DNA of 64,000 nucleotides from Polyangia bacterium (GTDB taxonomy: Bacteria > Myxococcota_A > Polyangia > Fen-1088). Below are positions 18,482 to 21,998 of this stretch, piece by piece (positions within the stretch are counted from its first letter, which is position 1; each line of letters opens with the position of its first letter). The notes under the pieces are model-generated. The model did not search any database, was not told the origin of the DNA, and saw only the letters and a program-made list of their open reading frames with translations. The stretch covers positions 1 to 64,000 of the forward strand of contig DATATI010000053.1 in NCBI GenBank assembly GCA_036268875.1, given 5' to 3'. The position numbers and the translations under genes are program-made.

Positions 18482-18820
18482 TCACTTCGCCTTGACGATC
18501 AGGTAGCGCAGCGGCCTTTCGGGCAAGAGGTTTTCCAGCGCCAGCGTCTGGCCAAGGGGAAGCTCGACGACCACGCCGGCCTGCAGGGTCACCGGCGATT
18601 CGCCGACCCGCGCCACCCCTTCACCTTCGACGACGATCAACACCTCGGCGCATTCTTGCTGCCGGTGAGCGCCGACGACGCCGCCGCCTTCAAGCTCACA
18701 AGCCAGGATGGCGCCGAATGGCGGCCGCGGTTCGGCGGCGCACAGGTTCCAGACCAACACGGCGCCGCGGCCGCCGAACAGACGCTCGCGACGATCGTGG
18801 GGACGCGTTCGATTCCACAC
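18482..18820 (-). CDS. Small cupin-domain protein
   Basis: 112 aa from GTG 18820, the first usable start after the stop of the peptide gene 10 bp upstream; a longer frame would run antiparallel through low-complexity sequence of the peptide gene and is rejected. The single cupin fold shows GAHRQQECAEVLIVVEG (metal-binding His and Glu of motif 1) and VELPLGQTLALENLLP (motif 2). No ribosome-binding site is seen, so translation may depend on coupling. As third gene of the radical SAM operon it may bind a metal, process the modified peptide, or sense it. Catalytic role unproven. Confidence 0.7.
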   Translation of the reverse strand: MWNRTRPHDRRERLFGGRGAVLVWNLCAAEPRPPFGAILACELEGGGVVGAHRQQECAEVLIVVEGEGVARVGESPVTLQAGVVVELPLGQTLALENLLPERPLRYLIVKAK

Positions 18821-18830
18821 GGCGTCGTCG

Positions 18831-19316
18831 CTAGCGATCGCTCGGCGGCGCTCCGTACATCGCCGCGATCCCGTACGCGGGTGCGATGCCATAGGGGGGT
18901 GCGATGCCGCCGGTGCCCGCTTGGCCGTCGCTGCCGCTGTCTTTGGCGTCGCCGCCGCCGTCTTGGCCGCCGCTGCCGCCGCTGCCGACTTGACCGCCGC
19001 TGCCGCCGCCGATACCGCCGCTACCGTTTTGACCGCCGCTGCCGCTGCCGCCGCTGCTCCCCCCCGTGCCGGTCGCGCTGTCGGCGGCGGTGTCTTTCCC
19101 GGCGTCGTTGCCGCTTGAACCGCTGCTGCAGGCCGCGGCGCCGAACAGCGTGGCACCGAAGGTGAACAGCGCGGCCCGTCCCAGACGGCGGCCCGGAAGC
19201 CGAGGGGGCGCGCTGGCCCTCTGTTCGGCCAGAAGCGCGACGCCGCAGAAGGGGCAGCGCTCGTCGCTGGCGCGCACGTGACGTTGGCAAGAGAGACAAG
19301 GAATGAGATGGCTCAT
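18831..19316 (-). CDS. Candidate radical-SAM substrate: zinc-ribbon, lipobox, Gly-rich protein with C-terminal YG repeats
   Basis: 161 aa. Order: a zinc ribbon (C7, C10, C21, C24: CLSCQ and CPFCG); a hydrophobic segment (AALFTFGATLFGAAAC) ending in lipobox-like AAAC near residue 62; about 75 residues of Gly/Ser/Asp low complexity; and a C-terminal tail with three Tyr-Gly units (PPYGIAP, AYGIAA, MYGAPP). It starts inside the stop of the radical SAM gene (ATGA). Leader-like front, flexible spacer and short aromatic repeats next to a SPASM enzyme suggest a ribosomally made, modified peptide or protein. No family assigned; the modification is inference. Confidence 0.7.
   Translation of the reverse strand: MSHLIPCLSCQRHVRASDERCPFCGVALLAEQRASAPPRLPGRRLGRAALFTFGATLFGAAACSSGSSGNDAGKDTAADSATGTGGSSGGSGSGGQNGSGGIGGGSGGQVGSGGSGGQDGGGDAKDSGSDGQAGTGGIAPPYGIAPAYGIAAMYGAPPSDR
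18834..18902 (-). repeat. C-terminal Tyr-Gly repeat, possible core peptide
   Basis: The last 23 codons encode three Tyr-Gly units, two followed by Ile and one by Ala, spaced 7 residues apart and separated by Ala/Pro/Met. The tail differs sharply from the preceding Gly/Ser spacer. Such evenly spaced aromatic motifs at the C-terminus next to a SPASM enzyme are typical of substrate core regions. Confidence 0.5.
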
Positions 19317-20548
19317 GTCGGGATCTCCTCAATCACAATATCGAAGCGGCCATTGTCGAACGGTTGTCCGGGCGCCGGCGCGACGGGAACCAATCGCTCG
19401 CGCTTGCCCTGCCGCTGAAACTCCAGCGCGCGGTGATGACAAAGCGGATTGTTGCCCGCCTTGCCAAACAGACTGAACGACGTCCAGGTGCACCCGGCCA
19501 GGCACGTGTCAGCGTAATAACAGGTGCGGCAATAGCCCCATAGATCGTCGACGGTCCGGTCGCGGGTGTAGCGCAGCGGCGCCGAACGCTCCCAGATGTC
19601 GCGCAACGAAGCGTCGCGCAGGTTGCCGCCGGTCCACGGATCGGTCTGCAGCGACGGACACCCTTTGATGGCGCCGTCCGCTTCGATCCCCAGGGTCGTG
19701 CGCCCGGCTCCGCAGGAAGCCATGTGACCACTCGGCATGGTCCCGCGCAGAACGGCTTCGTAAGGACCAAAATAACCAATGTTGTTTCCCGGCCACAACA
19801 TCACCCCGGCTTTGTCGCAACGGTGTTTCAACGCCGCCAGCATCGGGAACAGTTCCAGCAGATCGGACGGCTGCGGCAGCAGGTCGGGTTGGTCGGCGGC
19901 GCGGCCCATGGCGGCGGTCAGTTGCACTTGCCAGGCCTTGGCGCCGACCGCGATGACGGTGTCAAGGATCGCCGGCATCTCCGCCAGCGAGAGGCGATTC
20001 ACCTGCGTGTTGACGCAAATATTGAGTCCGGCAGCGCGCAGGTTGGAAAGCGCGCTCAGCGCCGATTGATACGAACCACGGACGCCGCGCAGCCGATCGT
20101 GCGTGGCTTCCAGGCCATCCAGCGAGACGCTGACACTTTGAAGACCCGCCTCGGCCGCGGCGGCGACCCGCTCGGCCGTCAGGCCGCGGCCACCGGTGGT
20201 CATGGTGGCCTGGATACCCCGACGACGAAGCGCGCGGACGATCTCCAGCCAGTCATCCCGCAGATAGGCCTCGCCGCCAATCAGCGTCACCTCGCGCACG
20301 CCCAGGTCCGCCATCTGGTCGACGAGATCCAGACATTCAGCCGTGGTCAGCTCGTCGGGCCGCGCTCGCCCGGCGCGCGATCCGCAGTGCACGCAAGCGA
20401 GATCGCAACGCAGGGTGATCTCCCAGACGGCATAGATCGGCCGCACCTCATCGACGCGCCGACTCTCCGGAGCCAACGGCAGATGCCGGCGCGCCGGTTG
20501 CGCCTCGGGGGCGACAGGCAGCGAGCGGCGAAGCGCGATGTCGGGCAT
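19313..20548 (-). CDS. Radical SAM/SPASM peptide-modifying enzyme
   Basis: 411 aa from ATG 20548; a TTG seven codons upstream is a weaker start. The radical SAM cluster motif is C48-x3-C52-x2-C55 (CDLACVHC), followed by GGEAYLRDDW (the GGE motif that contacts SAM). The C-terminal SPASM region carries the extra cysteines for auxiliary Fe-S clusters: CGAGRTTLGIEADGAIKGC, GYCRTCYYADTCLAGC and PLCHH. SPASM enzymes mature peptides and proteins. It overlaps the candidate substrate gene by 4 bp. The 200 bp upstream (20549-20765) should hold the operon promoter; no clear hexamers seen. Confidence 0.9.
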   Translation of the reverse strand: MPDIALRRSLPVAPEAQPARRHLPLAPESRRVDEVRPIYAVWEITLRCDLACVHCGSRAGRARPDELTTAECLDLVDQMADLGVREVTLIGGEAYLRDDWLEIVRALRRRGIQATMTTGGRGLTAERVAAAAEAGLQSVSVSLDGLEATHDRLRGVRGSYQSALSALSNLRAAGLNICVNTQVNRLSLAEMPAILDTVIAVGAKAWQVQLTAAMGRAADQPDLLPQPSDLLELFPMLAALKHRCDKAGVMLWPGNNIGYFGPYEAVLRGTMPSGHMASCGAGRTTLGIEADGAIKGCPSLQTDPWTGGNLRDASLRDIWERSAPLRYTRDRTVDDLWGYCRTCYYADTCLAGCTWTSFSLFGKAGNNPLCHHRALEFQRQGKRERLVPVAPAPGQPFDNGRFDIVIEEIPT

Positions 20549-20765
20549 GGGCGGTGTCACTGCCAGCAAACGCTACGCCAAACCTTCGCCGCGCGATATC
20601 CCTGAATCTGTGCGTTCGGAGCCACCTGGCCGGATGGACGCGCCTCAAATTTCTGTGACGGACCGATGTCCGTCCGCCTCTTCCCTCGACCTTTTCGGGA
20701 TCCGCGCCTTCTCCGCGACAGGCCCGCCCACGCGTAGCCGCACGCCGCAAGATCCCGTCCCGCCG

Positions 20766-21998
20766 CTAAGGCGAGTAGTCGATGCGGAACGTCTGGTTGG
20801 CGGCGCCGCTGTACGGATACTGATCGATCTTGGCGCCGTCGGCATAAGACGATCCGGCGACATCAAGAGACAGCGTTCCTTGTTTGACCATGATGCTGAA
20901 CCAACCATCGCCCACCGAGGAAATCGCCCAGCGCTGACTGTCGCTGCCGGTATATGCCCACTGGACGATGGTGCTGCCGTCGGCGCCGACAGGAGGATGA
21001 GCGTCCAGACACTTGCCGCTGTTCTTGGCGCAAAAGCTGTAAAAGCCGTCGCCCAGGCTGGTCACCTTGAACTTCTGATTGTCCGTGCTGGCAAATCCCC
21101 ATTGCACGACGTGGGCGCCGTCAGCGGTCGATGAACCGGAAATGTCCAGACAGCGGCCGCTGTGCTGGGCGCAGACCCGATACGTCTTCGCCGGATCAAA
21201 CACCGGCGCTGGCTCGCGCCACACCGTGACTGGAATGTTGTAACCCTTGCACGATTTATATCCGTCGGTCTGATGAGGCGAATCCGCAGCCACGCAATTG
21301 TTTGCGCACATGGCGTTTGTTCCAAAAGGATTGGTGTACGGGACGGTGCCTTGGTTGGCGCCCAGGCGGCCGGGCACCACCGACTGCGCAAAGCCCGGAC
21401 CGTTGCAATAAAAGGCGTCCAGCTTTCCGGTGGAAGGATTGGGGTTGAAGATGTTTCCGAAGAACGTTCCTTCTTGATTGGGAAAATAAGTGCTCTTCCC
21501 CCAACCCACAGACGGCGCCGGCGAAACCAGCCACAACGGAATGTGGACGCCGGCCGTGTTGATCCGCGCCATCATGCAGGCGGAGATCCCTTCCTGGCAG
21601 CTCTTGTCGCAGGCGCCGTTCTCCCAGCCTGGCCCGAAGCCCAGCTCGCCGGTGAACGTGTACCAGTTTCCCGATTGATCCTGTTTCTTGATGCTGTGCC
21701 CAGCAGGCAACGCGCACTTGACCAGATAGCTGGCGGTGGTGCGCCCCTGCGCCGTGCTCATCAGCCCGGTGGTCGACGCCAGGCCATTGCCGGTGGCCAA
21801 TCCATTGAACGCCGACAGGCCATTGAATGCCGACAGGCCGTTGAACGCCGACAATCCGTTGATTGAAGAGAGGCCGTTGGTTGATTGCAGCTCTTGATCC
21901 TCCAGATTGGTGGGAGCCGTTTGCTCGGCACAACTGGGCGCCGCGCAGAGAATGGCGAGCGGCAACCAAAGGCGACGGACGAGAGAGAAATGCAACAT
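20766..21998 (-). CDS. Lipoprotein with NGLSAF repeats and C-terminal ricin-type lectin domain
   Basis: 410 aa. Signal with lipobox (LAILCAAPSC). Residues about 38-90 hold a six-residue repeat (NGLSAF) that degenerates to NGLAT and TTGLMST. The middle (about 95-265) is a conserved-looking region with several Cys (WENGACDKSCQEGISACMMA) seen in myxobacterial secreted proteins; its function is unknown to me. The last about 135 residues are a ricin-B lectin/CBM13 domain with three similar blocks (GRCLDISGSSTADGAHVVQW, GKCLDAHPPVGADGSTIVQW, then a third). Likely surface carbohydrate binding. Encoded upstream of the radical SAM operon on the same strand. Confidence 0.82.
   Translation of the reverse strand: MLHFSLVRRLWLPLAILCAAPSCAEQTAPTNLEDQELQSTNGLSSINGLSAFNGLSAFNGLSAFNGLATGNGLASTTGLMSTAQGRTTASYLVKCALPAGHSIKKQDQSGNWYTFTGELGFGPGWENGACDKSCQEGISACMMARINTAGVHIPLWLVSPAPSVGWGKSTYFPNQEGTFFGNIFNPNPSTGKLDAFYCNGPGFAQSVVPGRLGANQGTVPYTNPFGTNAMCANNCVAADSPHQTDGYKSCKGYNIPVTVWREPAPVFDPAKTYRVCAQHSGRCLDISGSSTADGAHVVQWGFASTDNQKFKVTSLGDGFYSFCAKNSGKCLDAHPPVGADGSTIVQWAYTGSDSQRWAISSVGDGWFSIMVKQGTLSLDVAGSSYADGAKIDQYPYSGAANQTFRIDYSP
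21805..21876 (-). repeat. 18-bp tandem repeat encoding NGLSAF
   Basis: Three near-identical 18-bp units (21805-21822, 21823-21840, 21841-21858), differing by one to three bases, and a fourth degenerate one to 21876. Each encodes a six-residue unit in the lipoprotein. Unit number could change by slippage or unequal recombination. Confidence 0.85.

Follow-up and report, generated by a model that had tools for sequence, protein, structure and literature searches.

Our analyses point to an unusual kind of peptide-splicing system in which two adjoining genes of a Polyangia bacterium probably encode a splicease and its protein substrate, the latter docked on the enzyme through a zinc ribbon, exported, and displayed as an anchored tail carrying ketoamides. 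Splicing is proposed here by analogy with characterized enzymes, and docking, export and function from the anatomy of the substrate. In the mechanism that we favour, substrate and enzyme would meet in the cytoplasm through the N-terminal zinc ribbon, which would serve in cis for docking as the ribbon of the DUF1843/GDL systems would from its place on the enzyme or on a separate protein. The enzyme would excise the tyramine part of Tyr at XYG sites of the tail backbone, leaving reactive ketone groups. After modification, the lipoprotein signal would export the protein, and lipidation at Cys63 with cleavage by signal peptidase II would remove ribbon and signal together, so that an anchored tail with reactive ketoamides would remain. 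The sequence evidence covers the conserved pairing of the two genes, the conserved Tyr-Gly (YG) sites, the family placement of the enzyme, the changing position of the ribbon and a lipobox-like Cys; the docking role, the export and the function are read from protein anatomy, with lipidation, docking and protease inhibition leaning also on the spliceotide literature.

The pair belongs to a trio of minus-strand genes in the window, the whole 64,000-nt stretch of DNA analysed here (contig DATATI010000053.1), and all three genes were confirmed as open reading frames (ORFs) at the positions first reported. The radical SAM/SPASM enzyme, PlpX-like and of the splicease group (19313..20548, minus strand), runs from an ATG at 20548 to a stop codon at 19313-19315, its frame being open up to a TTG at 20569. 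The 161-aa precursor gene (18831..19316, minus strand) overlaps it by 4 bp (ATGA), and a cupin gene (18482..18820, minus strand; PF07883, Cupin_2, 2e-8) begins with a GTG at 18820, 10 bp past the precursor stop, and ends at 18482. The tight coupling described in the original prediction, including the 4-bp overlap and the 10-bp gap, is thus borne out by ORFs and Pfam, and the arrangement is more than chance because most homologous loci have, next to the enzyme, a protein that combines ribbon, hydrophobic segment and YG tail. The cupin, which had been taken for a third component, was searched for with BLAST up to 5 kb from the enzyme in 80 related loci and had no match; it was rejected as a component on these grounds and is probably an incidental neighbour outside the conserved unit. 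Just upstream of the operon (20766-21998, minus strand), a gene encodes a Ricin-B lectin protein whose N-terminus carries an NGL/SAFNGL repeat array; this protein has 12 more matches within its own genome.

The precursor matches no Pfam or NCBIfam family above cut-off. It consists of a ribbon with Cys7/10/21/24, a hydrophobic segment reaching to Cys63, a Gly/Ser-rich spacer and a YG tail, so that the four-Cys ribbon, hydrophobic lipobox segment, Gly/Ser spacer and three evenly spaced Tyr-Gly units originally described are all present. The ribbon occupies residues 7-24 (CLSCQRHVRASDERCPFC; 19245..19298, minus strand), and its residues C7, C10, R12, C21, F23 and C24 are invariant in 40 precursors, as is the lipobox-like Cys63 that closes the hydrophobic segment (19128..19178, minus strand). 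Over a larger set of precursors, a Cys ends the hydrophobic stretch in 81/81, Ala or Gly precedes this Cys at -1 in 75/81, and K or R stands just before the hydrophobic stretch in 80/81. The charged N-region before the signal is unusually long, about 45 aa, because the ribbon lies within it. With a positive segment, a hydrophobic stretch and a lipobox-like Cys, the protein has the anatomy of a lipoprotein, from which we infer lipidation. The Cys at the end of the hydrophobic segment agrees with the initial proposal of a product that is anchored rather than released.

The precursor tail GGIAPPYGIAPAYGIAAMYGAPPSDR bears Tyr142, Tyr148 and Tyr154, each before Gly and evenly spaced by 6 residues, and the protein ends in SDR, its last residue being Arg. 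Within the stretch IAPPYGIAPAYGIAAMYGAPP (18843..18905, minus strand), by comparison with the PlpXY splice tags, we predict three splice sites, PYG, AYG and MYG, each with an expected mass change of -135.07 Da, not -2 Da. Of the 213 Tyr in the tails of 81 same-strand precursors, 197 (92%) stand directly before Gly, against a Gly content of 18% in the tails; Pro stands at +3 of the tail Tyr in 81% and at +4 in 63%, and Pro or Ala at -2 in 76%. Tails carry one to five sites with a varied X (L, A, R, M, P, V and others), and the consensus of the 197 sites, [P/A]-X-Y-G-[A/G/L/I]-P-P, is matched by the window tail. In 21 orthologue pairs, with sites taken from one member per pair and about 7% of them opposite gaps, the aligned YG residues are 100% identical and the rest of the tail 61%; 27% of the YG codons differ synonymously. 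The spacer drifts between orthologues and the YG pairs are unchanged, in agreement with the original view of Tyr as the modified residue; the Tyr-Gly units are conserved and are probably where modification takes place. Y-S or Y-A replaces YG at a few of the 64 loci with a precursor (see below), and ribbon lipoprotein tails of this kind occur in L015/L048, L017, L021, L054 and L094; IYSAA in L048 and IYAAA in L054 fit XYG loosely.

The least certain step concerns what such a tail would do. Spliceotides have been reported as protease inhibitors (PMC11117315; PMC10373908), and an anchored ketoamide tail could plausibly be a reversible-covalent inhibitor of serine or cysteine proteases, a role that we put forward tentatively. 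Not far short of an even chance goes to another outcome, in which the enzyme is a splicease and its product a released peptide or a structural or adhesive surface polymer instead of an anchored inhibitor; the alpha-ketoamides could then serve as ligands for amines or metals, or as a tag by which a partner recognizes the protein. The variable number of sites, the varied X and the long low-complexity spacers would suit such a product, as would a subtype of loci in which the C-terminus looks as if it were bound or processed. In ten loci (L073, L078, L080, L083, L086, L093, L098, L103, L107 and L116) a gene combining PDZ and alpha/beta-hydrolase lies nearby, and each has a ribbon precursor with a hydrophobic last residue (Val in nine, Met in one). 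Val ends 12 of 15 precursors at PDZ-hydrolase loci versus 10 of 86 elsewhere, an association spotted after seeing the data and among related loci, so that its p-value is only a guide. The subtype suggests a dedicated partner for the tail C-terminus. However, the PDZ-hydrolase had no match in the other loci examined, and the window precursor, with its terminal Arg, falls outside the subtype; the invariant Cys after the hydrophobic segment argues for anchoring, and the inhibitory activity reported for spliceotides also speaks for the anchored inhibitor. The precursor of L089 also ends in Val, with no PDZ-hydrolase found in the stretch examined.

The family placement of the enzyme underlies the proposed splicing. 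It matches PF04055 (6.7e-24) and the SPASM family PF13186 (4.1e-8) over cut-off, and 26 aligned homologues all share its CxxxCxxC motif (C55/C59/C62, numbered on the 418-aa frame), its GGE and a further seven Cys, which upholds the radical SAM/SPASM assignment made from the sequence at the outset. Its top two NCBIfam families are TIGR04103 (nif11-class maturase 3, PlpX type), which we take to be the same as IPR026482, and TIGR03913 (GDL motif/DUF1843 type). The scores, 498 and 494 bits, stand far from the 173 bits of the next family and below the curated cut-offs of 725 bits for TIGR04103 (profile positions 3-379 of 412) and 591.75 bits for TIGR03913. By sequence, the enzyme belongs to the splicease group and not to the cyclophane type; because it misses the cut-offs of both families, a subfamily boundary has to be crossed to infer its splicing chemistry. 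The PlpXY splice tag PIRPLYGLPI, searched for as a DNA pattern, had no match in the genome contigs covered, and a TIGR04103 enzyme of Nostoc sp. C057 was therefore used as reference instead of PlpX. This plasmid-encoded enzyme, which scores 853 bits and exceeds the TIGR04103 cut-off, is 53% identical to the window enzyme over 381 aa. It adjoins a Nif11 precursor ending GSIALYGLPPELF (ALYGLPPELF, with an ALYGLPP core) and overlaps by 4 bp the next ORF, of 71 aa, which stands where PlpY would be expected. PlpX itself, the founding splicease, is a member of IPR026482 and works together with PlpY to remove tyramine at Xaa-Tyr-Gly (PMC11002830; PMC10533398). XYG-like sequences are thus what the enzymes of both nearest families act on, or are positioned to act on. 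Among solved structures matching the enzyme there was no splicease, the best match being PqqE (2.3e-23).

SPASM enzymes catalyse cyclophane, crosslink, thioether and epimer formation. The enzyme might accordingly make another radical change at the YG Tyr (a three-residue cyclophane, a Tyr crosslink, a thioether or an epimer), given that small conserved aromatic motifs are typical substrates of this superfamily and that Tyr is the conserved residue of the tail sites. We regard this as unlikely, since the splicease-type families are closest by more than 300 bits, the 25 top-scoring NCBIfam families, out of 85, include no cyclophane-synthase family, and the [P/A]XYG[A/G/L]PP context fits both the PIRPLYGLPI tag and the ALYGLPP of Nostoc. 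The cyclophane-type, -2 Da chemistry first envisaged is thus not supported; for the splicease-type families TIGR04103 and TIGR03913 the precedent is tyramine excision at XYG. In one locus (L018:1579-2808, plus strand) the enzyme frame itself continues into a C-terminal EKYGAPP tail. Eight others (L053, L057, L058, L060, L061, L064, L065 and L072) are enzyme-precursors-enzyme cassettes, with a second enzyme gene past the precursors.

The association of splicease-group enzyme and precursor was followed in 80 loci from a scan of named genomes, mostly Myxococcota, and in 84 once four plasmid loci were added. In a first pass with regular expressions, 58 of the 80 had a ribbon protein with YG no more than 4 kb from the enzyme. 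ORFs with ribbon and hydrophobic segment had YG tails in 77/80 cases within 1 kb of the enzyme versus 0/5 at 4-8 kb (80 loci). With a ribbon HMM, 64/84 loci had a zinc-ribbon precursor no further than 3 kb from the enzyme and in most cases right next to it, 60 of these loci being identified by script and four (L085, L089, L094 and L107) by hand, the hydrophobicity threshold having narrowly missed them. Across 97 genomes, scored with close-clade enzyme hits (E up to about 1e-115) and a precursor profile (E < 1e-5), 22 have both, six the enzyme only, one the precursor only and 68 neither, counts whose Fisher value ignores the relatedness of the genomes. Four of the six enzyme-only genomes belong to one family, where a divergent ribbon protein missed by the profile exists in at least L037 and L038. 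In family f1 five genomes have both genes and 13 neither, and in genus g2 one genome (G001) has enzyme and precursor and two (G007, G011) have neither. The co-occurrence in related genomes that had been set beforehand as a test of the prediction is therefore found, and at the sequence level enzyme and YG-tail protein form a conserved pair. Zinc ribbons are common and short, and Gly/Ser-rich proteins matching the spacer exist elsewhere in the same genome, but the notion of an ordinary regulator or stress lipoprotein lying by coincidence beside the enzyme is extremely improbable and was rejected on the 1-kb versus 4-8-kb counts, the adjacency in most of the 84 loci, the joint presence and absence over 97 genomes, including within genus g2, and the YG-specific motif with its conservation.

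The ribbon behaves as a movable module. Over the 84 loci it is placed on the substrate in 64, on the enzyme in seven, on a separate gene in four and nowhere in nine, some of which lie on short contigs. The precursor-ribbon profile matches the C-termini of six DUF1843-type enzymes (L108, L115, L118, L121, L131 and L133), the N-terminus of a Tropicibacter enzyme (L132) and small ORFs directly after the enzyme in L096, L101, L110 and L119; the window enzyme ends IVIEEIPT, with no C-terminal ribbon. After hand curation, no locus of the 84 had a ribbon both on the substrate and on the enzyme or a separate gene; in L109 the separate ribbon ORF called by the script runs to the contig end and was read as a second, truncated precursor. 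In the tree, enzyme-ribbon and separate-ribbon loci form a clade (100/99) apart from the one that holds most substrate-ribbon loci (100/98); L132 branches inside the substrate-ribbon group, and the exclusivity rests on few independent switches. Because the ribbon sits on the substrate, the enzyme or a separate gene and never in two places, it suggests an enzyme-docking module, one whose role in recognition is directly testable. PlpXY does not need the RiPP leader of its substrate (PMC10533398), so ribbon docking may help without being essential.

Among known systems, PlpXY of Pleurocapsa sp. PCC 7319 (TIGR04103, IPR026482) is close in several respects. The window pair shares its enzyme-family neighbourhood, as seen in the identity to the Nostoc enzyme, the CxxxCxxC and SPASM Cys, and an adjacent substrate with XYG sites (PYG, AYG, MYG) followed by Pro at +3, several sites per substrate being possible; the recurring tail context also matches the PlpXY tag and the Nostoc core. 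By contrast, the PlpXY substrate is a Nif11/NHLP-leader peptide and not a zinc-ribbon lipoprotein-like protein, and neither the window precursor nor three related ones gave a Pfam or NCBIfam match to a Nif11 or nitrile-hydratase-like leader. Unlike PlpXY-type members, the window enzyme scores under the TIGR04103 cut-off. PlpXY further includes PlpY, a truncated RRE, whereas no conserved PlpY-like gene was seen here among ORFs of at least 70 aa; when such ORFs from the 80 loci and the window were clustered, only precursors emerged as small neighbours conserved beside the enzyme.

The GDL/DUF1843 system (TIGR03913, PF08898) shares a related enzyme, XYG in many substrates and the same zinc-ribbon module, but has the ribbon at the enzyme C-terminus or on a separate small gene and short DUF1843 peptides, whereas here the ribbon is on the substrate. 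TIGR03913-type enzymes of Azospirillum and Aureibacter adjoin DUF1843 peptides, of which several contain PYG or LYG whereas others have Y-A or Y-M instead; in Acidobacteriota, DUF1843 matches that contain YG are encoded next to the enzyme. PF08898 has no match in the window precursor; nor has it one in the same genome, a result to be read with the control genomes, which likewise gave none and leave absence unproven. DUF1843 (PF08898) proteins, many with XYG, lie beside splicease-group enzymes at L131:2142-2842, L133:2171-2884, L108:7405-7647, L115:6626-6886, L118:7662-7955 and L121:7388-7732. Passages of a structural paper treat the DUF1843 family as possible self-assembling proteins, and the words 'radical SAM' were not found in it (PMC10994174). 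Three-residue cyclophane (triceptide) systems also have a radical SAM/SPASM enzyme adjoining a substrate with repeated aromatic motifs; they make crosslinks, whereas here the splicease-type best families, the YG-PP context and the PlpX-type homologues point to excision.

The enzyme type is known, and the idea of a wholly new kind of modification system is not supported. As far as the papers compared show, the zinc-ribbon lipoprotein-like substrate, which dozens of related bacteria encode next to the enzyme, is undescribed; outside that comparison stands Scott et al. 2022 (Chem 8:2659), reportedly on the spread of spliceases and the likeliest place for myxobacterial precursors. Within the same literature, it also appears to be new that the precursor's ribbon recurs in DUF1843-type systems, either as part of the enzyme or on a small neighbouring gene, and that no locus has it both there and on the substrate. 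If our reading is correct, backbone splicing by tyramine excision would no longer be confined to small RiPP-like peptides but would, across myxobacteria, include anchored lipoprotein-like proteins, and naturally multi-site splicease pairs would be on offer; the labelling field asks for more processive natural splicease homologues (PMC10533398). More speculatively, and with more doubt than confidence, Myxococcota and some relatives may possess a large class of zinc-ribbon lipoproteins with tails spliced at one to five sites, whose recognition module moved from enzyme to substrate and is discarded with the signal peptide; the cell surface would then bear arrays of reversible-covalent warheads against proteases that differ from one another in the P1 residue of the warhead.

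Related ribbon proteins also occur apart from these loci. The same genome codes for a second ribbon lipoprotein (L002; G000 C79:56249-56575, minus strand) with the tail PIPIYGHPPLSDDAG, on a contig where a splicease-group enzyme was not found. Orphan ribbon proteins are present in three genomes of family f6 (G054, G071 and G089), namely L164, L166, L168, L170, L173 and L174; most have FYAG (SFYAG, a loose fit to the XYG pattern) rather than XYG, and L170 and L174 have SFYAC.
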